DNA of 64,000 nt, taken from Turicibacter sanguinis (GTDB lineage: Bacteria; Bacillota_I; Bacilli_A; MOL361; Turicibacteraceae). The translations under genes were made by a program, and so were the position numbers. The stretch is from the NCBI RefSeq assembly GCF_013046825.1, contig NZ_CP053187.1, positions 857,501-921,500 of the forward strand, read 5' to 3'. Shown piece by piece: positions 2,741 to 46,690 of the stretch (positions are counted from its first letter, which is position 1; each line of letters starts with the position of its first letter). Below the pieces are notes generated by a model, which ran no database searches, was not told the origin of the DNA, and saw only the letters and a list, made by a program, of their open reading frames with translations.

Positions 2741-3991
2741 TTACTCGACAAATTTCTTTGCAATGTCTAGTCTGTAGAACAAATCATCACAAGTAATTTT
2801 TTCTATTTGTCGATAAACATTAGTTCGAGCTTTGTCTAAAGTTTCACCACTTCCAACAACAAAGAGAACGCGTCCACCGTTTGTTGTATAGTCTCCATCT
2901 ACTAATTTAGTTCCCATGTGACAAACGTCTACATCTTCCAGTAAATCAAGACCTTTAATAATTGCGCCTTTATTATAATTTCCTGGATAACCTTTAGCGG
3001 CTAACACAACTCCAACAGTTGGTTTATCTGACCATACACACTCGATTTCTTTCCCCTCAAGCAGTGATAACATGATTTCAGAAAGGTCTGTCTCTAAACG
3101 AGGAAGTAGCACTTCCGTTTCTGGATCTCCAAAGCGAGCATTGAATTCAATAACTTTAATACCTGACGATGTTTTCATTAATCCAGCATATAAGATTCCC
3201 GTAAATGGTATATTTTCAGCAATCATTGCCTTCGTCATTGGTCCAATAACCATTTTAATCGCTTCCTCATAATCTGATTCCAAAATAAGCGGATGTGGAC
3301 TGTGATTCCCCATTCCTCCTGTGTTCAACCCTTCATCATTATCATATGCACGCTTATAATCACGTGCAATAGGCATTGGGTTATAAAGTTCATTTGCGAC
3401 AAAAGCCATTAACGAAAACTCTTCACCTTCCAAGAACTCCTCGATCACTACTTTCGAAGAGGCCTCATCAAACTGACGATATAATAACATTGATTCTAAA
3501 GTCTCAATTCCTTCTTCTAATGTTTGACAAATAACTACACCTTTGCCAGCAGCTAGTCCATCTGCTTTAATAACAATTGGCATAGACTGTGTTTTTAAAT
3601 ACTCAACCGCGGGCTCAAATTCTGTAAATTCTTTATATACTGCCGTTGGAATATTATATTTTGACATCATCTGCTTAGCAAAGGCTTTACTGCCTTCAAT
3701 TAAAGCTGCTTCTTTAGTTGGGCCAAACACTTTTAATCCTTTTGAATTGAAACTATTAACAACTCCCGCTACAAGAGCCATTTCTGGCCCCACTATGGTT
3801 AAATCAATTTGATTTTCCAACGCAAAGTCAGTAAGTGCCGCTACGTTTGTTTCCTCAATTGGTACTAAAGTTGCCTCAATCATTCCATCATTTCCTGGTG
3901 CACAGAAAATTTGAGAAACTTTTTTATCGCGCATTAATTTTTTTATGATGGCATGCTCACGTCCCCCACGCCCAATAACTAAAACTTTCAT
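2741..3991 (-). CDS. purD: phosphoribosylamine--glycine ligase (GAR synthetase)
   Basis: Second step of de novo purine synthesis: joins glycine to phosphoribosylamine with ATP. 416 residues, normal for PurD. N-terminal MKVLVIGRGGREHAI is the family hallmark; the ATP-grasp core has IVIKADGLAAGKGVVI (near residue 137), GGMGNHSPHP and EFNARFGDPE, all expected. The start is preceded by GGGAGAAATTT. It is the last gene of the purine run, 24 bp after purH, and is followed by a hairpin. Confidence 0.97.
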   Translation of the reverse strand: MKVLVIGRGGREHAIIKKLMRDKKVSQIFCAPGNDGMIEATLVPIEETNVAALTDFALENQIDLTIVGPEMALVAGVVNSFNSKGLKVFGPTKEAALIEGSKAFAKQMMSKYNIPTAVYKEFTEFEPAVEYLKTQSMPIVIKADGLAAGKGVVICQTLEEGIETLESMLLYRQFDEASSKVVIEEFLEGEEFSLMAFVANELYNPMPIARDYKRAYDNDEGLNTGGMGNHSPHPLILESDYEEAIKMVIGPMTKAMIAENIPFTGILYAGLMKTSSGIKVIEFNARFGDPETEVLLPRLETDLSEIMLSLLEGKEIECVWSDKPTVGVVLAAKGYPGNYNKGAIIKGLDLLEDVDVCHMGTKLVDGDYTTNGGRVLFVVGSGETLDKARTNVYRQIEKITCDDLFYRLDIAKKFVE

Positions 3992-4015
3992 AAATTTCTC
4001 CCTATCCTCACCAAA

Positions 4016-5548
4016 TTAATGTTTAAAATGTCTTACTTTTGTAAATACCATCGCAATTCCAAATTTATTACAAGCATCAATAGAATCTTGATCTTTAATC
4101 GATCCACCTGGTTGAATGATTGCTTTAACTCCATATTTAGCAGCTAATTCAACTGTATCCGACATCGGGAAGAAAGCATCTGATGCTAAATATGAACCTG
4201 ATGCCAATTCATTAGCTTGTTCAAGTGCAATTTTAGCCGCACCGACGCGATTCATTTGGCCTGCACCAACTCCTACAGTCATATTATCTTTCACTAAAGC
4301 AATCGCATTCGACTTCACATGTTTTACAACTTTAAATCCAAATAATAATTGTTCTAAGTCTTCTTGTGTTGGTTTTACTTCTGTTACACATTCTAAGTCT
4401 TCAAGTGTTACTTCTAGTGTGTCTAAGTCTTGTTGTAATAATCCACCTTTAACTGTTGTTAATTTATGTCCTAGTTGACGACGATTTGACATGTCTGTTG
4501 TTAATAGGCGGATATTTTTCTTTTGTTTTAAAATTTGTAATGCTTCTTCTGTAAAACTTGGTGCAATAATAATTTCTAAGAAGATTTTATGAAGTTCTGT
4601 TGCTACTTCTTTGCTAACTTCACGGTTAAGAGCAACAATTCCACCAAAGATTGACGTTGAATCTGCTTCATATGCTTTTGCATAAGCTTCCTCGATTGTT
4701 GATCCAATTCCAACACCACATGGATTCATATGTTTTACCGCAACCGCTGCTGGTGCTTCAAATTCAGCTAAAATTTCAAGTGCCGCATTAGCATCTGCAA
4801 TATTGTTGTATGACAATTCTTTTCCATGTAATTGTTCACTCGCCACTACACTGTAAGATGGTTTTTCTAATGTTTGATAAAATGCTGCTGACTGATGTGG
4901 ATTTTCTCCATAGCGTAATGATTGTTTTAGGTCGTATGTAACAGTAAGTTTTTCTGGAATTTCAATTTCGTTGATTTGATTAAAGTAGTTTGCAATCATT
5001 GCATCATAGGCTGCTGTATGATTAAATACTTTTCCAGCTAATTTTTGACGCGTGTTTAAGGTTGTATTTCCATGTTCACGAATTTCATCAATAATTTGAT
5101 CGTAATCTTTAACATCTACAACGACTGTTACGTCATTAAAGTTTTTAGCTGCAGAACGTAGCATTGAAGGTCCACCGATATCGATGTTTTCAATTTTATC
5201 TTCATGTGTTGATTCAGGATTTTGAATTGTTTTTGCAAATGGATATAAGTTAACACAAACTAAATCTATGTACTCGATGTTGTTTTTTGCTACTTGTTGT
5301 TGGTGATATTCATCACCACGTTTTGCTAATAGACCACCATGAACTAATGGATGAAGCGTTTTGACACGTCCTTCTAAAATTTCCGGGAACCCTGTCACCT
5401 CGTCAATGGAAATAATATTCATTCCCGCTTCTTCTAATGACTTTTTTGTTCCACCTGTTGAAATAATATCGTATCCTAATTCAATTAAATTTTGTACAAA
5501 TGGCACTAAGTTTGTTTTATCTGACACACTTACTAATGCACGTTTCAT
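4016..5548 (-). CDS. purH: bifunctional AICAR transformylase / IMP cyclohydrolase
   Basis: Last two steps to IMP. 510 residues. The N-terminal MGS-like cyclohydrolase domain (about 1-150) shows ALVSVSDKTNL, ISTGGT and GRVKTLHP. The C-terminal AICAR formyltransferase part has LRYGENPHQSA and KHMNPCGVG, the latter in the folate/AICAR site. It uses the 10-formyl-THF that the first gene of this operon (fhs) makes. A strong AGGAGG ribosome site precedes the ATG. Spacing to purN is 14 bp, so cotranscription is expected. Confidence 0.97.
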   Translation of the reverse strand: MKRALVSVSDKTNLVPFVQNLIELGYDIISTGGTKKSLEEAGMNIISIDEVTGFPEILEGRVKTLHPLVHGGLLAKRGDEYHQQQVAKNNIEYIDLVCVNLYPFAKTIQNPESTHEDKIENIDIGGPSMLRSAAKNFNDVTVVVDVKDYDQIIDEIREHGNTTLNTRQKLAGKVFNHTAAYDAMIANYFNQINEIEIPEKLTVTYDLKQSLRYGENPHQSAAFYQTLEKPSYSVVASEQLHGKELSYNNIADANAALEILAEFEAPAAVAVKHMNPCGVGIGSTIEEAYAKAYEADSTSIFGGIVALNREVSKEVATELHKIFLEIIIAPSFTEEALQILKQKKNIRLLTTDMSNRRQLGHKLTTVKGGLLQQDLDTLEVTLEDLECVTEVKPTQEDLEQLLFGFKVVKHVKSNAIALVKDNMTVGVGAGQMNRVGAAKIALEQANELASGSYLASDAFFPMSDTVELAAKYGVKAIIQPGGSIKDQDSIDACNKFGIAMVFTKVRHFKH

Positions 5549-5562
5549 CTCTCTTCATCCTC

Positions 5563-6123
5563 CTAAATATTTAGCAATTGTTTAATGACAGTTGGATATA
5601 GCTCATGTTCTAAGTCATGAATTTTTTGCTCTATTTCTTCTCTTGTCTCTAACCCTGTACGTTTAAAACAAACTTGGTCAATAATCATCCCTGTATCAAT
5701 ACCTGAATCAACGTAATGAACAGTCACTCCCATAATTTTAACCCCATATTTTAATGCGTCTGTGATTCCATCCCGACCAGGAAAAGCTGGTAATAATGCA
5801 GGATGGATGTTAATGATTTTTCCTTCGTAAACATCTAATAAAGTTTGACCAACAATGCGCATGTAGCCTGCTAAAACAATTAAATCTGGGTTAAGGGGGA
5901 TTAACTGAGTACAGATTTCTTGTTCGAAGGCTTCTTTACTAGAATATTCTTTTGAATTAAAAACGAAGGTTGGAATGTTCATTTTATGAGCTCTTTCAAT
6001 GCAATAGGCACCCGGTTTATCACAAACAAGCAGTGCTACTTCGCAGGCTTGTTTATGTAATTTTTCAACGATAGTTTGAAAGTTACTACCATTCCCTGAA
6101 GCAAAGACAACTATTTTTTTCAT
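5563..6123 (-). CDS. purN: phosphoribosylglycinamide formyltransferase (GAR transformylase)
   Basis: Third step of purine synthesis: transfers formyl from 10-formyl-THF to GAR. 186 residues, normal for PurN. The catalytic set is visible: [13 protein letters not shown] carries the Asn and His, and [10 protein letters not shown] carries the Asp. N-terminal ASGNGSNFQ binds the phosphate. The start codon overlaps the purM stop by four bases (ATGA), so translation is probably coupled. No formate-dependent purT is in the window. Confidence 0.97.
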
Positions 6124-7145
6124 ACTAGTTGTACTCCTTCTTCAGCTACAACGTGACCGATGATATGTGGAGTTTCTCCTGCTTCTGTTAAGACCTCCAT
6201 TGTTTTTTGAACTGAGTCTTTTGATACAATGATAATCATTCCAATTCCCATGTTAAAGACGTTATACATTTCGCGCTCGTCTAAGTTTCCAAGTTCTTTT
6301 AAGTAATTAAAGATTGGAGGCATTGGATATGAGTTTTTATTAATGACGACTCCGTGCCCCTCTGGTAATGTACGTGGAATGTTCTCATCAAATCCTCCAC
6401 CTGTAATGTGAGCCATCCCATGTACTTCAACTTCTTTTAGTAAAGCCAAGATTGGTTTAACGTAGATTTTTGTTGGTGCTAAGACGGCCTCTGCTACTGT
6501 GGCTTGAAGTGATTCAACGTATTGGTTTAAATCGACGTTATGGTCTTTGAATAAGATTTTACGTACTAATGAGTATCCATTTGAGTGAATTCCACTTGAT
6601 GAAAGTCCGATGATGATATCACCTTCACTTACTTTTTCACCCGTGATTAATTCATCTTTTTCAACAACTCCAACTGCAAATCCAGCTAAATCATAATGTC
6701 CATGCTCATACATATCTGGCATTTCGGCTGTTTCCCCACCGATTAAAGCAGCTCCCGCTTGCTCACATCCATCTGCTACTCCTTTAACGATAGCCTCAAT
6801 TTTAGCAGGTTCATTTTTTCCAACCGCCACGTAATCTAAGAAATATAAGGGTTCTGCTCCTTGTACAACGATATCATTCACACACATTGCGACGCAATCG
6901 ATTCCAATTGTGTCATGAACATCTGCTTTAATTGCCACCATTAACTTAGTTCCGACTCCATCTGTCCCCGATACTAAGAGAGGGTTTTGGTAATCAAGTG
7001 ACGATAAATCAAACATAGCACCAAATGATCCAATTCCCGAAAATACTCCTGGACGATTCGTTTTTGCGATATGTTTTTTGATTCGATTAACCGATTCGTA
7101 ACCTGCTTCTAGACTTACACCTGATTGTTCGTACGCTTTACTCAT
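6120..7145 (-). CDS. purM: phosphoribosylformylglycinamidine cyclo-ligase (AIR synthetase)
   Basis: Fifth step: closes the imidazole ring of FGAM using ATP. About 341 residues. Motifs [20 protein letters not shown] and [13 protein letters not shown] match the PurM family. The frame extends upstream to a GTG at 7154, but the ATG at 7145 sits well behind GGGGTGGAG and is chosen as start. It overlaps purN by four bases and follows purF with a 12-base gap. Confidence 0.96.
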
Positions 7146-7157
7146 CTTCTCCACCCC

Positions 7158-8588
7158 TTATTTAACTTCTTTGTTTGCATTTATAACATCTTCATATAGA
7201 TATGTCGGATAGTCTCCATTAAAACATGCGACACATTGACCACAGTTTTTACCGTAAGTTACAGGTCGGCCAATACCTTTTGTTAGTCCTTCTACTGAAA
7301 TAAAGGCTAATGAATCGGCTCCAATTACGTGTCTTATTTCTTCTGTTGTATGGGTTGCAGCAATTAATTCATCGTATGTTGAGAAATCAACTCCATAAAA
7401 ACATGGAAATTTGATTTCTGGTGAGGCGATACGCACGTGAACTTCTTTAGCCCCTGCATCACGTAACATATCTACCATTCGGCGTGATGTTGTCCCACGA
7501 ACAATTGAGTCATCAATTAAAATAACGCGTTTATCTTTAACGATTGAACGAACAGCTGATAATTTCATCTTAACGCCTTGTTCACGAAGTTCTTGTGAGG
7601 GCTGGATAAAGGTTCGTCCAATGTATTTATTTTTAATCATGCCAATTTCAAATGGAATATTAGCTTCTTCTGCATATCCGATAGCTGCACTTAATCCCGA
7701 ATCTGGTACTCCTACAACGATATCTGCTTCAACGTGTGATTCTTTAGCTAGAACTCGGCCACAATTTTTACGTGCTTGGTGAACGTTAATTCCTTCTACA
7801 TCACTATCTGGTCTTGCAAAGTAAACGTACTCCATGCTACACATGCTACGATGACAAGTTTTGGCGTAGCGGTCTGACGTTATCCCATTTAAGTCAATTC
7901 TGATGACTTCTCCTGGATGAACATCTCGCAAATATTCTGCTCCAATCACATCAAAAGCACATGTTTCCGATGCAACGACAATTCCTTTATCACCAATTCG
8001 ACCAAGAGATAGTGGACGTAATCCCAGTTTATCTAAAGCGATGTACATTTCATTTTCTTTTAATAGTAGGAAGGCGAAAGCTCCCTCGATATAAAGTAGG
8101 GATTCCTTCAAAGCTGTCATCATATCTCCACGTTGGCGTTTGATTAAATGAGCGAGAATTTCTGAATCAGAGGTAGTCTGAAAGATGCTTCCCTCGTTTT
8201 CAAGATAGACTTTAAGTTGATTTGCATTGACTAAATTTCCATTATGACAAAGACCAAGTGGTCCTGATTGAGAGCGGAATAGGAAAGGTTGAACGTTCAT
8301 AATTCCGCCTCCGCCTGCTGTTGAATAACGAACGTGTCCAATCGCATGGATTCCCTTTAGACGATCGATATCTTGTTGAGTAAAAACATTTCGAACAAGT
8401 CCTTCTCCTTTATGTTGATGAAGCATTTTGCCATCACTCGTAACGATTCCAGCGCCTTCTTGACCACGATGTTGAAGAGCATGTAATCCGTAATAAGTTA
8501 ATTCAGCTGCATTTTCATGATTGAAGATTCCAAAGACTCCACACTCTTCATTCATTTTATTTTCGAAAAATAAATCTAATTCTGCCAT
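7158..8588 (-). CDS. purF: amidophosphoribosyltransferase (glutamine PRPP amidotransferase)
   Basis: First committed step of purine synthesis: makes phosphoribosylamine from PRPP and glutamine. Start taken at the ATG at 8588 after AAGGTG; the upstream GTG at 8597 lies within that ribosome site. The N-terminal nucleophile is Cys16 (NEECGVFGI), so a 15-residue propeptide is likely cleaved, as in the Bacillus enzyme. HRGQEG and HVRYSTAG follow. The PRPP site is VILIDDSIVRGTTSR. C-terminal CGQCVAC plus an upstream Cys suggests the [4Fe-4S] type of PurF, which in Bacillus is oxygen-labile. Confidence 0.97.
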   Translation of the reverse strand: MAELDLFFENKMNEECGVFGIFNHENAAELTYYGLHALQHRGQEGAGIVTSDGKMLHQHKGEGLVRNVFTQQDIDRLKGIHAIGHVRYSTAGGGGIMNVQPFLFRSQSGPLGLCHNGNLVNANQLKVYLENEGSIFQTTSDSEILAHLIKRQRGDMMTALKESLLYIEGAFAFLLLKENEMYIALDKLGLRPLSLGRIGDKGIVVASETCAFDVIGAEYLRDVHPGEVIRIDLNGITSDRYAKTCHRSMCSMEYVYFARPDSDVEGINVHQARKNCGRVLAKESHVEADIVVGVPDSGLSAAIGYAEEANIPFEIGMIKNKYIGRTFIQPSQELREQGVKMKLSAVRSIVKDKRVILIDDSIVRGTTSRRMVDMLRDAGAKEVHVRIASPEIKFPCFYGVDFSTYDELIAATHTTEEIRHVIGADSLAFISVEGLTKGIGRPVTYGKNCGQCVACFNGDYPTYLYEDVINANKEVK

Positions 8589-8598
8589 ATTATTCACC

Positions 8599-9309
8599 TT
8601 AGCGACTTACGCGATTTAAGATTTCAATATAGGCTTCTTCAACATTTCCTAAGTCGCGACGGAAACGATCTTTATCTAACTTTTCGTTTGTTTTTTTATC
8701 CCATAAACGGCATGTATCTGGTGAGATTTCATCGGCTAACACAATTTCCCCATTTTTTGTACGTCCAAATTCAATTTTGAAATCAATTAAGCGAATGTCT
8801 TGTGCGTCGAAGAATTCAATCAATGCTTTGTTGATTTCTAATGTCATTTCTTTAATTTTTGCTAACTCTTCATAAGTCGCTAAATCTAATGCTACCGCGT
8901 GATCTTCATTAATCAACGGATCCCCATAAGCATCATTTTTATAACATAATTCATAAACCACGTTCGATGGAATTGTCCCTTCTTCGATTCCTAAACGTTT
9001 TGCCATACTTCCTGCAATAATGTTGCGCACGATAATTTCTAAAGGAACAATTTCAACTTTATGACATAATTGATCACGATCATTTAATTTTTCAATGAAA
9101 TGGGTTTTCACTCCACGTTTTTCTAACATTTCAAAAATGATTGTTGTAATCGCATTGTTTAAAATACCTTTGTTTGCGATGCTTGATTTTTTTACCCCAT
9201 TAAATGCTGTTGCATCGTCTTTATAATGAATAATAACTTTGTGATCATCGTCCGTTTTAAAAATTTGCTTTGCTTTTCCTTCATATAACATTACTCGAGT
9301 TGGGTTCAT
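8599..9309 (-). CDS. purC: SAICAR synthetase
   Basis: Joins aspartate to CAIR. 236 residues, normal length. [19 protein letters not shown] and [13 protein letters not shown] are family signatures; [10 protein letters not shown] is near the C-terminus. The frame continues upstream to 9432, but that extension (41 residues, Lys-rich) lacks family similarity and overlaps a hairpin; the ATG at 9309 has GGAGG eight bases upstream. A 333-bp spacer separates it from purL, the only large gap inside the operon. Confidence 0.95.
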
Positions 9310-9401
9310 GGCCTTATCCTCCGTTTTTCTCTCTTTGTATAGTCTCTCTTTTATCTTTTTACTTGTTAGGGTGACGCTGTGCTTTCTCATTAGATATATA
9401 A

Positions 9402-9633
9402 GAACCTCTAAGTTTTGTGGATTTTTAAACATTTAGCGGTTCTATAGTTATACCTTAGTATCAAAAGGGTTTAAATACTAAGCCTGATGATAAAACGATT
9501 GATTACATTTCAGTTTATATATAGAACTTTTGAATCTAGTTTCTTCTCGCAATACGCTCGTAAAGTTCTAAAGCCTCTTCTGTCTCCCGATAATTCAGAC
9601 TTTATTCACTTCCTACGCGTGTTAATTGCGAGA
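9402..9633 (-). ncRNA. folded purL-purC intergenic region (three successive hairpins, unknown RNA)
   Basis: Three inverted repeats lie in this transcribed spacer. The first pairs TCTCGCAAT with ATTGCGAGA (9625-9633 with 9545-9553), and inside it ACGC/GCGT, AAGT/ACTT and AAAGTCT/AGGCTTT can stack. The second is a perfect 8-bp stem CTTAGTAT/ATACTAAG (9454-9482). The third is GAACC.CTAA/TTAG.GGTTC with one mismatch (9402-9442). None has a good U-tract. I do not recognise a known riboswitch core. It could be a processing site, a regulatory RNA or decayed sequence. Confidence 0.35.
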
Positions 9634-9642
9634 CTCAACGTT

Positions 9643-12600
9643 TTATTTAAAGTATTTTACTCCGCTTTGGAACAGTAATTGATCGTAATTACCTGGGACA
9701 TTTTTGAAAATTTGACTTCCGATGCGCTCTGAGTGCCCCATTTTTCCAAGAATGCGTCCATCTGGACTTGTAATTCCTTCAATGGCAGCGATTGATCCAT
9801 TAGGATTGTAGATTCCATCCATTGTTGGTTTTCCAGTTACGTCTACGTATTGAGTCGCGACTTGACCATTTTTGATTAATTTTTTAATCACAGCATCATT
9901 CGCTACAAATTTCCCTTCTCCATGCGAAATTGCGATATTGTGAATATCTCCAACGTTTGCCCCCGATAACCAAGGTGATTTGTTTGAGGCAATACGTGTT
10001 TGTATAATTTTTGACATATGTCGGTTCGTATTGTTTTTAACTAGAGTTGGTGAGTCTTCAGTTACCATTCCAAACTGTCCATATGGTAATAATCCTGATT
10101 TAATTAATGCTTGGAATCCATTACAAATACCTAAGATTAATCCATCACGCTCTAATAATCCTTCAATACTTTCACGTACCTGTTCATTCATTAAAACTGA
10201 TGTAATAAATTTTCCTGATCCATCTGGCTCATCTCCAGCACTGAATCCTCCAGATAGCATTAACATTTGAGATTCATTAATGTGTTTAACCATACGTTCA
10301 ATTGAAGCTTCAATATCTTGATGATTTTGATTACAAAATACATCAATGATTGATTTTGCCCCAGCTTGTTCGAAGGCTCTTGCACTATCATATTCGCAGT
10401 TTGTTCCTGGGAATACTGGCAAGAATACTTGTGGTGTTGATTTTATTGATGATGTTTTAATGATGGTATTTTTATAGTCAATGATTGGAACCTCTATTTT
10501 TTCAGCTTCAGCGGCAACTGGATATAAATTGCCAAATGTTCCTTGCCATGCTTCTAAGCTTTCTTCAATCGTGATGGCCTCTTGATTGATGACGATTAAA
10601 GGTTCCGATGTTGTTTTTCCAAGTAAGTGCGCATGATCAAATAATAATGGTCGATCAGACTCTACGATAATCGATCCCAGTTCTAAGTCGAATACATCAT
10701 AACCTGTTTTAATGGTTGCACCAATTTTATTCCCGAAACTCATTTTTGCTAATGCTTCAGCAATCCCTCCCTGTTTAACCGAGAAAGCTGATTTAATACA
10801 TCCGACTGTAACCATGTCATAAATATAGTCAAAGTTAGTTTTTAACTGTTCAATATTTGGCATTAAATCTTTAGTTGGTTCATGTTTAATTAAATAAATA
10901 TAGTTTTCCGGTGCCTTGAATTCTGGTGATAAAACTTTGTTTGCTTTTTCTGTTTGAACTGCAAATGAAATGAATGTCGGTGGAACATGTAATTCTTCAA
11001 ATGATCCACTCATACTATCTTTTCCACCGATTGCAGGTAAATTAAACCCTTTTTGAACGTAAATTGACCCGAGTAGCGCTGCAAACGGTTGTCCCCAGTT
11101 TTGTGGGTCTTGTCCTAAACGACGAAAGTATTCTTGAAATGAGAAACGAATTCCTTGCCATCTTCCACCTAAGGCAATGATTCTTGCCATTGATTCAACT
11201 ACTGCATAAGCTGCTCCATGGAATGGTGACCAGGATGTAATTTCTGGATTATATCCATAAGTTAACATACTAACTGTATTTGTCACACCATGACGTAGTG
11301 GAATTTTATGAACTGATCCTTCCGTCTCAGTTAATTGATATTTTCCTCCATAAGGCATTAAAACAGTCGTTCCCCCAATGGTTGAGTCAAACATTTCAAC
11401 CATTCCTTGCTGTGATGCAACATTTGGTTGTTTTAAATTATTTAGGAATTTATCTTTAATTGTGTTTCCTTGTATTTTACTTTGGAATGGATTAGATTCT
11501 AAATCTGTTTTAATTGTAACGTTTGTTGTTTGACGCGCACCATTTGTATCTAAGAAAGTACGTGATAAGTTGACGATTGGACGACCATTCCAATTCATCA
11601 CTAAACGATTGGTATTTGTCACTTCTGCAACAACAGTTGCTTCTAAGTTTTCATGATGTGCAAAGTTAATAAAAGTTTCTACATCTTTAGAAGCGACCAA
11701 GACTGCCATACGCTCTTGCGATTCTGAAATTGCAAGTTCTGTTCCATTTAATCCATTGTATTTGACTGGAACAGCATTTAAGTCGATGTTTAATCCATCA
11801 GCAAGTTCCCCAATGGCAACAGCTACGCCTCCTGCTCCGAAATCATTACATTTTTTGATTAAGCGCGTTACTTCTCCATTTCTAAATAAACGCTGAATTT
11901 TTCTTTCAGTCGGAGCATTTCCTTTTTGAACTTCTGATGAAGCTGTTTGAATTGATGTTTCATTATGAGCTTTGGATGATCCTGTTGCCCCACCAATTCC
12001 ATCTCTTCCTGTACGCCCACCAAGTAGAATGATGACGTCTCCAGGAGCTGGTTTTTCACGGCGAACATCACTTGCTTTAACTGCTCCGACTACTGCTCCG
12101 ACTTCCATGTGCTTTGCTTTGTATCCTTCATGATAAACTTCACGAACAAAGCTTGTTGGTAATCCAATTTGATTTCCGTAAGAGCTATTTCCATCTGCTG
12201 AACGTTTTGAAATAATTTTTTGAGGAAGTTTACCTTCCATCGTATCTTCGATAGATTCTAAAACATTTGCTCCACCACTAATACGCATCGCTTGGTAAAC
12301 ATATGAACGTCCAGATAGTGGATCACGAATTGCTCCACCAATACATGTTGAAGCCCCACCAAATGGTTCAATTTCTGTTGGATGATTGTGTGTTTCGTTT
12401 TTAAACATTAATAACCATGGTTCGTTAACCCCATCAACATCGACATCTATATAAACACTACAAGCATTAATTTCGTCTGACACTTCTAAATCATTTAATA
12501 ATCCTAATTTGCGTTGTTCTTTCATTGCAATAGTTGCCATATCCATTAATGTCATTGGCTTTTTATTATGGTGAACACGCTCTCGCATTGCGCAGTATTC

Positions 12601-13350
12601 ATTGAAAGTTTGTTGTAAAATTTCATGGAATCGTCCACTTTCGAATGTTACATTTTCAATTAATGTTTCAAACGTTGTGTGACGGCAGTGATCTGACCAG
12701 TAAGTATCTAATACTTTTAACTCTGTTTCTGTTGGATTTCGTTTTTCTTCCTTTAAGAAGTAATCTTGAATTAATTTGATGTCTGCTAGGGACATGGCCA
12801 TCCCGTGTGTCTTTAAGAATGCCGCTAACGCTTCCTCTTTATAGTCAACGAATCCTTCATATGTTTTGACATCTTCAATTTCTATTGATTCATCTAATTG
12901 AAGTGGTGCTGTTAAATCTTTTTCACGCATTTCAATCGGATTGATATAGTAGTTTTTAATTTTAGCTAATTCTTCTTTTGACTGTACTCCATCCAAAATA
13001 ATCACTTTTCCACTCTTAACACGAACCTCATCATTTCCTGTTAAAAGTTGAATACATTGAATTGCTGAGTCGGCACGTTGATCATATTGCCCGGGTAAAT
13101 ATTCTACTGCAAAATAGGTTTTATCACTTAACTCAATTGAGTCACTTGTCATATCTGTTACAATTTCAGATAAAACATTTTGCTTCGCTGTTTCAAGTTC
13201 TGTTTCATTAACGTTAAATAAATCATATATATTAATGACACGAGTATTAGTTAGGTTTAAATGTAAATTTTCATTCAAATCATGCCGTAAACTTTTAGCT
13301 TCTGTTGCATAGATATCCTTCTTCTCCACAAAAATACGATACTGACTCAT
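9643..13350 (-). CDS. purL: single-chain phosphoribosylformylglycinamidine synthase (PurS+PurL+PurQ fused)
   Basis: Fourth step: converts FGAR to FGAM using ATP and glutamine. About 1235 residues, so this is the large fused type rather than the three-subunit Bacillus type; no purS or purQ is present. The N-terminal ~170 residues are PurS-like, the middle holds two synthetase lobes (SDHCRHTTF near 225, NETHNHPTEIEPFGGA near 325, GGKDSMSGSF near 790), and the C-terminal ~260 residues are a class I glutamine amidotransferase with nucleophile Cys in LGICNGFQ and His in ISHGEGKF. Start chosen at the ATG at 13350 behind GGATGAGG; GTG 13365 and ATG 13359 are alternatives. It follows purK by 20 bp. 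Confidence 0.96.
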   Translation of the reverse strand: MSQYRIFVEKKDIYATEAKSLRHDLNENLHLNLTNTRVINIYDLFNVNETELETAKQNVLSEIVTDMTSDSIELSDKTYFAVEYLPGQYDQRADSAIQCIQLLTGNDEVRVKSGKVIILDGVQSKEELAKIKNYYINPIEMREKDLTAPLQLDESIEIEDVKTYEGFVDYKEEALAAFLKTHGMAMSLADIKLIQDYFLKEEKRNPTETELKVLDTYWSDHCRHTTFETLIENVTFESGRFHEILQQTFNEYCAMRERVHHNKKPMTLMDMATIAMKEQRKLGLLNDLEVSDEINACSVYIDVDVDGVNEPWLLMFKNETHNHPTEIEPFGGASTCIGGAIRDPLSGRSYVYQAMRISGGANVLESIEDTMEGKLPQKIISKRSADGNSSYGNQIGLPTSFVREVYHEGYKAKHMEVGAVVGAVKASDVRREKPAPGDVIILLGGRTGRDGIGGATGSSKAHNETSIQTASSEVQKGNAPTERKIQRLFRNGEVTRLIKKCNDFGAGGVAVAIGELADGLNIDLNAVPVKYNGLNGTELAISESQERMAVLVASKDVETFINFAHHENLEATVVAEVTNTNRLVMNWNGRPIVNLSRTFLDTNGARQTTNVTIKTDLESNPFQSKIQGNTIKDKFLNNLKQPNVASQQGMVEMFDSTIGGTTVLMPYGGKYQLTETEGSVHKIPLRHGVTNTVSMLTYGYNPEITSWSPFHGAAYAVVESMARIIALGGRWQGIRFSFQEYFRRLGQDPQNWGQPFAALLGSIYVQKGFNLPAIGGKDSMSGSFEELHVPPTFISFAVQTEKANKVLSPEFKAPENYIYLIKHEPTKDLMPNIEQLKTNFDYIYDMVTVGCIKSAFSVKQGGIAEALAKMSFGNKIGATIKTGYDVFDLELGSIIVESDRPLLFDHAHLLGKTTSEPLIVINQEAITIEESLEAWQGTFGNLYPVAAEAEKIEVPIIDYKNTIIKTSSIKSTPQVFLPVFPGTNCEYDSARAFEQAGAKSIIDVFCNQNHQDIEASIERMVKHINESQMLMLSGGFSAGDEPDGSGKFITSVLMNEQVRESIEGLLERDGLILGICNGFQALIKSGLLPYGQFGMVTEDSPTLVKNNTNRHMSKIIQTRIASNKSPWLSGANVGDIHNIAISHGEGKFVANDAVIKKLIKNGQVATQYVDVTGKPTMDGIYNPNGSIAAIEGITSPDGRILGKMGHSERIGSQIFKNVPGNYDQLLFQSGVKYFK

Positions 13351-13370
13351 TTTCCTCATCCTCACCCTTT

Positions 13371-14501
13371 TTACTTTGGAAAGTTTTCTAAAAACAGTTC
13401 CACAGTTTTATGTAAATCTTCTCTCTTCTTACTTGTAAATGTCATATGTCCAACTTTACGATTTGCTCGTAATTCTTCTTTTCCATAAAGGTGAACTTTT
13501 GCCTGATGAAATTCAGGTGTTGTCCACATTTTTAAGGCATAGTCAACATGTTGGCCTAGCAAGTTGACCATGATAGCTGGCTCTATTAGGGTTGGCTTAA
13601 TTAGTGGTAAGCCACATACTGCTCGAATATGTTGTTCAAATTGCGAAATGTTGCAAGCATCAATTGTATAGTGTCCTGAATTATGAGGACGTGGTGCTAA
13701 TTCATTAATAATAATGTCATCACCTATAACAAACATCTCAATCGCAAGTGTTCCAACAAAATCTAAACGTTCAATTAAAGTTCTTGCTATTTCTTCCGCC
13801 TTTATCATAAGCTCTGAACTAATATCAGCTGGTACGATACTTAAGTGTAAGATATGATTTTGATGAATATTCTCCGCTACCGGGAATGTCTCGACATCAC
13901 CATTTGTGCCTCTTGTTACGATGACTGAGATTTCTTTTTCAAAAGGAACAAATCCTTCGAGGATACATTCTGTTCCTTCGACAATAGGAATAACTTCTAA
14001 GATATCTTCATCAGTTTTTAGCATCCATTGTCCTTTGCCATCATATCCACCACACGTCGTTTTCAAAATAGCTGGGTACCCTAATTGCTTAATGGCATAT
14101 CTTAACTCCGCTTCACTTTCGACTTTCATGAATGGTGCTGTTTTAAATCCACAATCATTAATGGCGATTTTTTCTAAAAAGCGATGTTGAGTAATCGCAA
14201 TTGGTCGATTTCCTTGGGGGAGATACCCTTTAGATTCTAGTTGCTTAATCATCTCACTTGAGACATTTTCAAACTCATAGGTAATGACGTCACTTTGTTT
14301 AAATAAGGATAACAATGCTAATTCATCATCATAAGTTGCATTAATTTCGATATCAGCAACTTGGGCAAGTGGTCCATTTGCTACTGGTTCTAAAACGGCA
14401 ATTTTATATCCCATTTGTTTAGCAGCAATTGCCATCATTCTTCCAAGTTGTCCTCCACCGATAATTCCAATCGTTGATGGGGGTAATATTAACTTACTCA
14501 T
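13371..14501 (-). CDS. purK: N5-carboxyaminoimidazole ribonucleotide synthase
   Basis: ATP-grasp enzyme that carboxylates AIR with bicarbonate to N5-CAIR. 376 residues. N-terminal [13 protein letters not shown], middle [17 protein letters not shown], and [17 protein letters not shown] are typical. The start overlaps the purE end by eight bases, the usual purE-purK coupling. Together with PurE it shows the bacterial two-step route to CAIR. Confidence 0.96.
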
Positions 14502-15006
14502 TTAAATCGCAATCTCCCAGTACTGAATCCGTCATCTCTTTACGATAATTTTCTAAATAAACTGCAATTTCTTGATATGATGTGCTTAACATGGAAGCTG
14601 CTAATAATCCTGCATTTTTGGCTCCAGCTTTTCCAATAGCTACTGTAGCTACCGGAATTCCTCCTGGCATTTGAACAATAGATAGTAACGAATCGAGTCC
14701 ATTTAAAGCTCTTGATTGAACCGGTACTCCAATAACCGGAAGTGTTGTTTTAGCAGCAACCATTCCAGGAAGGTGCGCAGCACCTCCTGCTCCTGCAATG
14801 ATTACTTTAATTCCCCTATTACGTGCAGCCTCTGCATATTCAAACATTTTATCTGGTGTTCGATGCGCTGAAACGACACTAGCTTCATAAGAGATTTCTA
14901 ATTGCTCTAAAACTTTCATCGCTTCTTGCATTGTTTCGAAATCTGATTTACTTCCCATGATAATTCCAACCAATGGTTTGGGTGAGATTTCGTATATTCT
15001 CTCCAT
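14494..15006 (-). CDS. purE: N5-CAIR mutase
   Basis: Moves the carboxyl group of N5-CAIR to give CAIR. 170 residues, normal for class I Pur[25 protein letters not shown] and [14 protein letters not shown] are the active-site motifs. The start is the ATG at 15006 behind GGGAGG; a TTG one codon upstream is in frame. It lies 46 bp after fhs, with no terminator seen between, so fhs likely heads the same transcript. Confidence 0.96.
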
Positions 15007-15052
15007 CAAAAATCCTCCCTATTTTATTTTTTCTATCCTTATATATATGCTT

Positions 15053-16714
15053 TTAGAATAACCCGATACATTCACCCTCTGGTGTTACATCCATTTTTAA
15101 AGCAGCTGGTTCTTTCGGTAATCCTGGCATTGTTAAGACGTTACCTGTTAAGCAAACAATGAATCCAGCTCCTGCTGAGATACGAACTTCACGAATTGTA
15201 ATGTCAAAATCAGTTGGACGTCCAAGAACTTTTGGATCATCACTTAATGAAACTGGTGTTTTAGCCATACATACTAAGTAATCTTCGTATCCTAATTTTT
15301 TTATTGTTTCTAATTGCGCTTTTGCTTCGTCTGTATAGTTTACTCCGCGTGCCCCATAAATTTTTTGAGCGATTGTTAAGATTTTCTCCTCTAATGTTTG
15401 GTTACGCTCATAAATTTGATTAAATGTTTGATTGTTCTCTTCAATTAGTGAGACAACTCGAGTTGCTAATTGCTTAGCACCAGCTCCTCCATTTAACCAA
15501 ACATTTGCGATTTCGCATGGATGATTATTTTGTTCACACCAAGATGTTAAGAATTCAAGTTCTGCCTCTGTATCATGCGTGAATTGGTTAACTGCTACGA
15601 TGTATGGCAAATTAAATTGCGTGATTGAATCAATATGTTTAGCTAAGTTTTCGATTCCTTTTGATAAGGCTTCAACGTTTTCTTCTTTTAAATCTTCATA
15701 TTCAACGCCACCATGCATTTTTAATGCACGAATTGTTGCGACGATAACAACACAGTCTGGTGTAAGTTTTCCTTCACGACATTTAATATCTAAGAATTTT
15801 TCTGCTCCTAAGTCAGCTCCAAATCCGGCCTCAGTAATCACATAGTCTCCAAGTTTTAAAGCAGTTTTAGTTGCAATAATAGAGTTACATCCATGAGCAA
15901 TATTTGCGAATGGTCCTCCATGAACGATAGCTGGTGTATGCTCGCATGTTTGAACTAGATTCGGTTTAATTGCATCTTTTAATAACATGGCAATTGCACC
16001 TTCAATTTTTAAATCTTTAACGTGAACTGGGTGATCATCCGGAGTATAAGCGACGATGATATTTCCTATACGAGCTTTTAAATCCTCTAAGCTTGTAGCT
16101 AAACAAAGGATTGCCATAATTTCAGAAGCAACTGTAATGTTAAATCCATCTTTACGTTCAATTCCATTAACTTTTGAACCTTGTCCAATCGTGATATCAC
16201 GTAATGTACGATCGTTTAAGTCTAAACAGCGTTTGAATACAATTTTAGTTGGATCAATATTACATTCGTTACCTTGATACATATGATTATCTAGTAATGC
16301 ACAAATAGCATTGTTTGCTGTTGTAATAGCGTGAATATCTCCTGTAAAGTGAAGATTTAAATCTTCCATCGGTAATACTTGTGAGTACCCTCCACCAGTT
16401 GCTCCACCTTTAAGTCCCATAACTGGTCCAAGTGATGGTTCACGTAAGGCGATAACAGATTTCTTATCAATATGGTAAAAACCTTGCCCAAGACCTACTG
16501 TCATCGTTGTTTTTCCTTCTCCGGCTTTAGTTGGGCTAATAGCTGTTACTAGGACTAATTTTCCGTCTTTTTTATTTTGATTCATGACACTTAAGTCAAT
16601 TTTCGCCTTATATTTTCCATAACATTCAACTTCATCTTCAATCCCTAATTGTTTAGCAATCTCAATAATTGGTTTTAATTCAATTTCTTTTGCAATTTGT
16701 AAATCATTTTTCAT
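15053..16714 (-). CDS. fhs: formate--tetrahydrofolate ligase
   Basis: Makes 10-formyl-THF from formate, THF and ATP; 553 residues, normal length. The P-loop is TPTKAGEGKTTMTVGLGQG (near 62-80). The PGLPKEPAALKMD stretch near the C-terminus is typical of the family. As first gene of the purine operon it supplies the one-carbon unit for PurN and PurH, and formate would come from the PflB encoded at 43189-45414. AGAGGAG precedes the ATG. Its leader holds a guanine-type riboswitch and terminator, so it is probably repressed when guanine is plentiful. Confidence 0.97.
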   Translation of the reverse strand: MKNDLQIAKEIELKPIIEIAKQLGIEDEVECYGKYKAKIDLSVMNQNKKDGKLVLVTAISPTKAGEGKTTMTVGLGQGFYHIDKKSVIALREPSLGPVMGLKGGATGGGYSQVLPMEDLNLHFTGDIHAITTANNAICALLDNHMYQGNECNIDPTKIVFKRCLDLNDRTLRDITIGQGSKVNGIERKDGFNITVASEIMAILCLATSLEDLKARIGNIIVAYTPDDHPVHVKDLKIEGAIAMLLKDAIKPNLVQTCEHTPAIVHGGPFANIAHGCNSIIATKTALKLGDYVITEAGFGADLGAEKFLDIKCREGKLTPDCVVIVATIRALKMHGGVEYEDLKEENVEALSKGIENLAKHIDSITQFNLPYIVAVNQFTHDTEAELEFLTSWCEQNNHPCEIANVWLNGGAGAKQLATRVVSLIEENNQTFNQIYERNQTLEEKILTIAQKIYGARGVNYTDEAKAQLETIKKLGYEDYLVCMAKTPVSLSDDPKVLGRPTDFDITIREVRISAGAGFIVCLTGNVLTMPGLPKEPAALKMDVTPEGECIGLF

Positions 16715-16897
16715 TTAAAATCCACTCCTCTTTGTTTTAATAGCTAACCAAGATATTTCATCTATCTAGAAATAGATATGTTTTTAATAGTTTTAATCCG
16801 ACTCAGTATCTAAATCTTTTCAATACGAAGATTAACTACAATGCATTTATCACTTAGCAATTATCCAAAATAATCTATTCTTAACTGCTAGGACACG

Positions 16898-16927
16898 CAG
16901 AAGTTTTTCAAAGTTTAGAAACTTCTG
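16898..16927 (-). other. hairpin in the 288-nt stretch between leader terminator and fhs
   Basis: A 9-bp perfect inverted repeat (CAGAAGTTT / AAACTTCTG) with a 12-nt loop lies in the untranslated region between the riboswitch terminator and fhs. No U-tract follows on either strand, so it is not a terminator. Nothing else recognisable was found in 16715-17002. Confidence 0.35.
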
Positions 16928-17002
16928 TACAATGACATATCTATATTCTTTACTTTAATAAAGCAAAAGAATCTTTTTAGCTACTTTTTTATTTGTAGAA
17001 AT

Positions 17003-17036
17003 AAAAAAGCACCTTTAGGACTTAACTAAAGGTGCT
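17003..17036 (-). terminator. intrinsic terminator of the purine riboswitch leader
   Basis: Perfect 11-bp stem (AGCACCTTTAG / CTAAAGGTGCT) with a 7-nt loop, followed by TTTTTTA on the minus strand. The 5' arm ACCUUUA can pair with UAUGAAGGU, part of the 3' strand of aptamer helix P1, which would make a ligand-sensitive antiterminator. That switching model is inferred. Confidence 0.85.
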
Positions 17037-17151
17037 AATAGTTAAATGTAACTCTAAAGAATTATATTAGGTAAGTTAAATAAAGCCTTCATCGAGACTA
17101 TTTTTGCTTTCACTAACATATGACTTTGCGATACACTTTATTATTAGACAA

Positions 17152-17220
17152 CCTTCATAGTCCCTGTATTTACGGTAAGGGGTAGAAACTTTCGAACCAT
17201 ATTATCGATGATATATGAAT
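17152..17220 (-). ncRNA. purine riboswitch aptamer (guanine type)
   Basis: The minus strand carries the conserved core: ATATGG, GTTTCTACC, a CCGTAAA loop and GACTATGAA in order. P1 pairs TTCATA (17214-17219) with TATGAA; P2 is UCGA/UCGA; P3 starts CCCU/AGGG. The discriminator base that follows P3 is C (GACTAT), which in this class selects guanine or hypoxanthine; adenine switches have U (GATTAT). It sits 438 nt upstream of fhs with a terminator in between, so ligand binding should stop transcription of the purine operon. Confidence 0.93.
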
Positions 17221-17226
17221 GCTGTG

Positions 17227-17255
17227 ATTTTTATGTGATTTACTGTAGGTATCAA
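17227..17255 (-). promoter_or_regulatory. weak candidate promoter just upstream of the riboswitch
   Basis: TTGATA (17250-17255) and AAAAAT (17227-17232) are 17 bp apart on the minus strand, placing a start about 10 bases before aptamer P1. The -10 is poor. If real, the riboswitch transcript starts here rather than at the stronger promoter at 17438-17466. Confidence 0.3.
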
Positions 17256-17264
17256 ATTAATTGT

Positions 17265-17306
17265 AAAAAAAAACATATGCGTTAGTAAAAACACTTAACC
17301 CATACG
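17265..17306 (-). terminator. upstream leader terminator
   Basis: The minus strand has an 11-position stem, CGTATGGGTTA with TAACGCATATG, with one G-G mismatch and one G-U pair, followed by nine T residues. It directly follows the small ORF at 17308-17394 and precedes the guanine riboswitch. Confidence 0.75.
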
Positions 17307-17307
17307 T

Positions 17308-17394
17308 TTAACTTTTTCGATACACTATTTTTAATTGTAGGCATACGATTGGTGTAAATTGATTCATCTGTTTTGTCATTTGAATTCGCTCCAT
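17308..17394 (-). CDS. 28-codon leader ORF (candidate small peptide)
   Basis: ATG at 17394, with GGAG four bases upstream, opens 28 codons (MERIQMTKQMNQFTPIVCLQ and eight more, ending YRKS) to a TAA that abuts the upstream terminator. No family is recognised. The same DNA can fold: TTGTAGG (17407-17413) pairs with CCTACAA (17335-17341), inside which TTGG/CCAA can pair. It may be a leader peptide, a free small transcript with its own terminator, or only a structured RNA. Confidence 0.3.
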   Translation of the reverse strand: MERIQMTKQMNQFTPIVCLQLKIVYRKS

Positions 17395-17437
17395 TTTCTC
17401 CAACCCCCTACAAATTCTACAACTTATTTACAATTGC

Positions 17438-17466
17438 ATTATAAACTAATAAAAAATAAATATCAA
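17438..17466 (-). promoter_or_regulatory. sigma-A promoter of the purine leader
   Basis: TTGATA (17461-17466) and a perfect TATAAT (17438-17443) lie 17 bp apart on the minus strand. Transcription would start near 17431, giving a leader of about 717 nt before fhs if both terminators are read through. No PurBox (CCGAACATT-like) was seen around it. Confidence 0.75.
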
Positions 17467-17614
17467 TATCGTTTAGCAAATTTTTCATATGAAAACGAAA
17501 TAAACATTTTTCATTTTTAGATCCCCTTTAATAGGTTATTATCGTTAACCAAATTGAAGAACACTTTTTGAATCATTTTTTATAAAACTATTAATTTTGA
17601 AAAATTATTTTCTA

Positions 17615-17643
17615 TTGCACAGTGTTTGAGTATATGCTATCAT
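17615..17643 (+). promoter_or_regulatory. promoter of guaB
   Basis: TTGCAC (17615-17620) and TATCAT (17638-17643) with a 17-bp spacer. The transcript would begin near 17650. A hairpin GGGCTATT/AATAGCTC lies in the short leader before the ribosome site but has only three T residues after it. An inverted repeat GGTTA-N7-TAACC about 80 bp upstream could be an operator. Confidence 0.65.
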
Positions 17644-17711
17644 GTTTACAACTAAAAAACGGGCTATTCATTAAATAGCTCTTTGAGGACATGAACATGA
17701 TTATAACATAA

Positions 17712-19202
<1,491 letters not shown>

Positions 19203-46584: not shown

Positions 46585-46690
46585 CTCTTATCAAGAGCGG
46601 CGGAGGGACAGGCCCTGTGATGCCCGGCAACCATCAATTAATGATACGGTGCCAATTCCTGCAGATTTTTATCTGACAGATGAGAGAAAG
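46585..46690 (+). ncRNA. SAM-I (S-box) riboswitch
   Basis: CTCTTATCAAGAG, GGCGGAGGGAC, GGCCCTGTGATGCCC and GGCAACC appear in order, then GGTGCCAATTCC and the closing AGATGAGAG of P1. This is the standard S-box core. It lies upstream of the methionine ABC transporter genes and is followed by a terminator, so high SAM should stop transcription. Confidence 0.96.

Follow-up and report, generated by a model that had tools for sequence, protein, structure and literature searches.

The purine biosynthesis operon of the gut bacterium Turicibacter sanguinis is preceded, on the minus strand of the 64,000-nucleotide stretch analyzed here (the window), by a promoter, a 28-codon open reading frame (ORF) and two terminators, T1 and T2, with a guanine-type aptamer between them; a further 288 nt separate T2 from fhs and the pur genes. 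Comparison of genome sequences confirms that this two-terminator leader is real and conserved. It also brings out a feature that an earlier note on this DNA missed, namely that the stop codon of the ORF lies in or next to the 5′ arm of T1, which suggests how T1 may be controlled. With somewhat better than even confidence, and by analogy with the pyrBI and pil1 leaders, we read T1 as a translation-controlled attenuator placed before an ordinary guanine OFF riboswitch, in which case the purine genes would probably respond both to translation by the ribosome and to the level of guanine. The features, in the order of transcription, are as follows.

17438..17466, minus strand: leader promoter, TTGATA-17-TATAAT, 11 of 12 consensus bases.
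17398..17409, minus strand: Shine-Dalgarno region AGGGGGTTGGAG of the leader ORF, with AGGGGG at 17409-17404.
17308..17394, minus strand: leader ORF, 28 codons and a stop, MERIQMTKQMNQFTPIVCLQLKIVYRKS, following the Shine-Dalgarno.
17265..17306, minus strand: T1, core hairpin and nine U, −11.4 kcal/mol, z −4.93.
17138..17238, minus strand: purine (guanine-type) riboswitch aptamer, RF00167, 69.8 bits against a cut-off of 37.
17151..17157, minus strand: P1 3′ strand UGAAGGU, antiterminator half for T2, pairing with ACCUUUA of T2.
17003..17036, minus strand: T2, expression platform of the riboswitch, −15.4 kcal/mol, z −5.27.
15053..16714, minus strand: fhs, first gene of the operon, NF010030, 912.8 bits.
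2741..15009, minus strand: rest of the operon, comprising purE, purK, purL (1240 aa) and purC, assigned with NCBIfam, and five more ORFs.

The last five ORFs of the operon we take from their translations to be purF, purM, purN, purH and purD, and guaB (IMP dehydrogenase) diverges from the fhs leader at 17724. No PurR of the B. subtilis type scored above the cut-off in the genome of the window (best 58.2 against 258.7 bits), so no PurR repressor need be assumed. A TTGTAAAYA motif at 17437-17415 (minus strand), right after the −10 element of the fhs leader, occurs again at about 17650 (minus strand) in the guaB promoter and is possibly an operator common to both. An inverted repeat that resembles a hairpin, with GAGGACAT after it, lies in the guaB 5′ leader (17600-17723, plus strand) and is seen again in congeners. 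A SAM riboswitch is found at 46585-46686 (plus strand) with 98 bits.

When 40 relatives were searched at the DNA level, the region turned up in congeners. We aligned the fhs/guaB intergenic region of the window with those of four genomes of the same genus (G004, G001, G003 and G002) and with the fhs side of the region from G006, which belongs to another genus of Turicibacteraceae and whose locus (L031) stops short of guaB. The order promoter, Shine-Dalgarno, ORF, T1, aptamer, T2, fhs is found in all six genomes, five Turicibacter and G006. The ORF, peptide and T1 of G006 are unrelated in sequence to the others, and a 12-pair outer stem with the stop codon in its 5′ arm is nonetheless present, so that it is the layout and not the sequence that is kept. 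This likeness is the strongest sign of selection on the layout. The arrangement is not family-wide, since fhs is present in all eight family genomes and in two of them (G005 and G007) it is without such a leader; each of these two has one purine aptamer, on a contig other than that of fhs, before what we presume to be a permease-like ORF. The possibility that the unit is a repeated element was rejected, as a search of four Turicibacter genomes gave good matches only at the fhs leaders of G000, G004 and G001, other matches being short and at chance level and the G003 fhs leader being too divergent to appear. A pair of equal-scoring purine aptamers 318 nt apart, each with its own terminator, lies before an ORF of no assigned role at another locus (L035; G000:C1:2571396, 2571714), with a similar pair in G004.

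The strong minus-strand promoter proposed at 17438-17466 holds up well, as all six genomes keep 10–11 of 12 consensus bases with a 17-nt spacer. We believe this promoter because it is conserved, the promoter scan as a whole being no better than chance (7 found, with 8.3 expected in shuffles), and the leader transcript is expected to start near 17430. The earlier note had left open whether the two terminators are stacked attenuators of one transcript or whether the first unit is separate, with the riboswitch starting at a weaker promoter at 17227-17255. The comparison favors stacking, because promoter, ORF and T1 are kept before the aptamer in all six genomes and no promoter conserved in position lies between T1 and the aptamer. 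What speaks for the weaker promoter is its 9/12 match to consensus, and it is not consistently kept.

That promoter, ORF and T1 form a separate small transcript, for a small protein or RNA, with the riboswitch operon starting between T1 and the aptamer, is in our view unlikely, although it is the strongest of the rival explanations. It is consistent with T1 being a good terminator, with the 9/12 promoter at 17255-17227 in the window, matched at the same place by a 9/12 promoter in G004, and with a 10/12 promoter that overlaps T1 in G002. However, the best promoter of the interval, which scores 9, 9, 7, 9, 10 and 8 of 12 in the window, G004, G001, G003, G002 and G006 respectively, is lowest in G001 and G006 and differs in place, and the gap between T1 and P1 (52, 52, 38, 36, 31 and 24 nt in the same order) leaves just 24 nt in G006. 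A small-protein gene would also be expected to show purifying selection, of which little is seen, and no second good copy of the unit was found in the four genomes searched. Among other purine-riboswitch loci of the family, 8/25 have a promoter of at least 10/12 ending at most 16 nt from the aptamer, compared with 0/5 fhs leaders.

The terminator with nine T residues that had been noticed at 17265-17306 folds with the energy listed above, and none of 200 shuffles was equally good; a simple terminator scan, using a stricter stem and loop form, missed it. As to whether this first terminator is always kept, T1 is present in all six aligned leaders, being weak in G003 (−6.1 kcal/mol). The covarying stems that the note had proposed to look for did not appear in the T1 helix, where two-sided changes occur in none of 16 pairs among the five Turicibacter sequences. 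Nascent folds gave no pairing partner of the T1 5′ arm that is common to the genomes. By eye, and in the window only, the sequence after the aptamer AGTGTATCGCAAAGTCATATGTTAGTG (17140-17105, minus strand) resembles the T1 lead-in AGTGTATCGAAAAAGTTAAACGTATGGGTTAAGTG.

The short ORF of the earlier note likewise stands, with 28 amino acids at 17394-17308 and its AGGGGG Shine-Dalgarno. The corresponding element is AGGAGG in G004, G003, G002 and G006 and GGAGG in G001, and the ORF has 28, 32, 32, 32, 32 and 29 codons in the window, G004, G001, G003, G002 and G006. In the four genomes with 32 codons the length is fixed despite 21–46 differences in 93 bases (five pairs compared), and the chance of the ORF remaining open under random substitution is 0.08–0.27 per pair. 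Among four genomes there is little purifying selection on the peptide (pN 0.20–0.45, pS 0.34–0.79). As selection on the peptide is weak and the chance of an open frame is of that size, the claim that the ORF is coding rests on the position of the stop codon and on the Shine-Dalgarno. The peptide sequence is poorly conserved, whereas the position of the ORF and its stop are kept: the stop lies inside the 5′ arm of T1 in 5/6 genomes, and in the window it starts 4 nt before the T1 core. Relative to the start of the extended T1 stem, its first base falls at −1 in the window and at +12, +12, +10, +14 and +6 in G004, G001, G003, G002 and G006, the window ORF ending just before the stem core after a one-base length difference. 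In minimum-energy folds codons 18–21 close over the Shine-Dalgarno. Against 150 downstream shuffles per genome the result is mixed, with closure of the Shine-Dalgarno standing out in G003 (3/150) and closure of the ATG in G004 (3/150) and G001 (0/150), and the other genomes unremarkable or opposite in each case.

The placement of the stop codon bears on a second rival, in which the leader is stacked but T1, as a fixed and partly leaky terminator, does no more than lower output, the ORF being incidental. We consider this improbable, slightly more so than a separate transcript: it would fit the weak conservation of the peptide and the outcome that neither a sensing element nor a T1 antiterminator was found, but a Shine-Dalgarno, an ORF and a stop at the T1 5′ arm are seen in 6/6 genomes, including the sequence-unrelated G006. 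Still less probable, and in our opinion very doubtful, is that T1 is switched, in the manner of bmrC or trp leaders, by a ribosome that stalls at a codon of the ORF in response to a drug or an amino acid, for although a C-[LP]-[QK]-[FLY] stretch is common to the five Turicibacter peptides and such leaders are known from Gram-positive bacteria (PMC4191407), the stretch is absent from G006, no run of a single codon occurs in the six leader peptides and nascent folds gave no conserved T1 antiterminator. An amino-acid leader-peptide attenuator was rejected on the same absence of a codon run in six peptides and of a shared T1 antiterminator. A nucleotide-specific pause tract of the pyrBI type, looked for as a purine-rich tract before T1, was not supported, the tract being exceptional in G002 only. 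Sequence windows that equal or exceed the purine content of the 16 nt before T1 number 51/109, 21/118 and 50/117 in the window, G004 and G001, and 15/118, 1/118 and 22/101 in G003, G002 and G006, so a purine-rich pause tract is not exceptional, G002 excepted.

The riboswitch that follows appears to be of ordinary design. The earlier note had placed a guanine-type aptamer at 17152-17220; its identity is borne out by RF00167, while those limits cover only the core of the full 17238-17138 match. We take it to be guanine-type from the C in GACTA. The UGAAGGU/ACCUUUA pairing has 7 pairs in five genomes and 6 in G006, and as predicted from these sequences the alternative pairing of the P1 3′ strand with T2 is the standard OFF design. 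The second terminator proposed at 17003-17036 is present in all six genomes, with energies from −13.7 to −21.0 kcal/mol; a simple terminator script omitted T2 of G004 and G006, where the hairpins fold at −15.4 and −13.7 kcal/mol. Our measurement agrees with the 288 nt reported between T2 and fhs, a long stretch peculiar to the window, as the distance is 106, 107, 77, 77 and 44 nt in G004, G001, G003, G002 and G006. This stretch (16715-17003, minus strand) has by eye an inverted repeat, AGAAGTTT...AAACTTCT, without a T run. A tandem guanine-PRPP riboswitch was considered and rejected, as the 15 matches obtained over 16600-17760 at a threshold of E up to 10 include no PRPP (ykkC 2b) aptamer.

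To place the leader among other purine riboswitches we searched 247 Bacilli genomes, found RF00167 in 146 of them and collected 114 loci, of which 84 come from this search (24 plus 60 from the best-scoring rest) and 30 from the family. The 105 examined exclude nine missed by the aptamer pattern; the G004 leader lies outside the 114 records, yet has the layout. All five fhs leaders and 1/100 other loci passed, a ratio that is descriptive only, since the criteria were set from the fhs leaders after inspecting them, several of the 100 are duplicates or near neighbors, and some, L088 for example, sit at the end of a contig where little upstream DNA is available. The sole other pass is a purE operon of G014 (L071) with an ORF, a terminator and a purine aptamer. 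It was rejected as support, as the terminator and ORF end copy, at 80% identity, the terminator region that follows the upstream gene, and from this copy the arrangement is probably a gene-end remnant. Among 23 pur-type loci examined closely, two were unrecognized by the aptamer pattern and of the rest only L071 had passed. The view that a guanine riboswitch normally works through a single terminator is in line with this survey, but needs qualifying, as two-input guanine-PRPP leaders are known, as passages of PMC5912903 describe.

Translation-relieved termination at T1 is the best reading of the leader because the geometry of stop and terminator is the same as in cases from E. coli and from pil1. 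Parts of PMC4824070 state that in E. coli ribosomes repress almost completely those terminators that lie a few bases past a stop codon, and parts of PMC3894217 that in S. gallolyticus pil1 termination is relieved and read-through raised by a leader peptide whose end lies within or close to a hairpin. One transcript from about 17430 would thus meet two terminators in turn before fhs. A ribosome reaching the ORF stop would cover the T1 5′ arm and block the hairpin, and RNA polymerase would continue; were the ORF untranslated, or the ribosome lagging or stalled early, T1 would form and transcription end. With guanine bound, P1 would be held and T2 would form (OFF), whereas without guanine the P1 3′ strand would take up the 5′ arm of T2 and transcription would continue into the operon. 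The leader would then act as a two-input AND gate, open when translation is competent and guanine is low. We infer that T1 terminates in the cell and that translation relieves it, and by analogy with pyrBI the signal we favor for T1 is how closely transcription and translation are coupled. In Bacillus-type bacteria RNA polymerase is said to outpace the translating ribosome, which counts against a ribosome-controlled T1.

The controls familiar from Firmicutes purine operons are PurR and riboswitches of the guanine or guanine-PRPP kind. If the proposed reading is true, purine synthesis is tied to translation and guanine in a genome without a B. subtilis-type PurR over the cut-off, and the leader offers a simple natural case in which to ask if, in a Gram-positive bacterium, an early terminator can be under ribosomal control. 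More tentatively, the leader may be an RNA-only AND gate in which the leader-ORF attenuator senses the coupling of ribosome and RNA polymerase, and through it translation capacity or nucleotide supply, and lets transcripts through to the guanine riboswitch. The open-licence PMC literature gave nothing relevant on Turicibacter riboswitch leaders and no leader peptide or leader-ORF attenuator that accompanies a guanine riboswitch before purine genes. Leaders of this general kind are known, but we did not find the combination described. Like guanine riboswitches elsewhere, the fhs leader has a guanine aptamer that would act through a terminator to shut down purine synthesis. The tandem guanine-PRPP riboswitch is also a two-input leader (in parts of PMC5912903), but there the PRPP aptamer sits after the guanine aptamer with one shared terminator, whereas in the fhs leader the second input is upstream with its own terminator and ORF. 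Salmonella mgtCBR, as parts of PMC3641672 describe it, likewise has two attenuators with independent signals in one leader and an unconserved mgtM ORF peptide; both of its attenuators are ORF-based, while the second of the fhs leader is a riboswitch. In Streptococcus gallolyticus pil1 the leader-peptide stop lies 4 nt before or inside the terminator (passages of PMC3894217), but pil1 is a pilus operon with a varying repeat number, whereas in the fhs leader the stop of the ORF is constant and the genes that follow serve purine synthesis. A further parallel is E. coli pyrBI, where, in passages of PMC4824070 and PMC3641672, a short ORF overlaps the terminator before nucleotide-synthesis genes and a nearby ribosome prevents the hairpin, as proposed for T1. 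Unlike pyrBI, which senses UTP through a U-rich pause tract and without a riboswitch, the fhs leader is without a supported purine pause tract and is followed by a guanine riboswitch; if the more tentative AND-gate reading is correct, it would be the purine equivalent of pyrBI joined to a riboswitch and kept across two genera while the peptide drifts.
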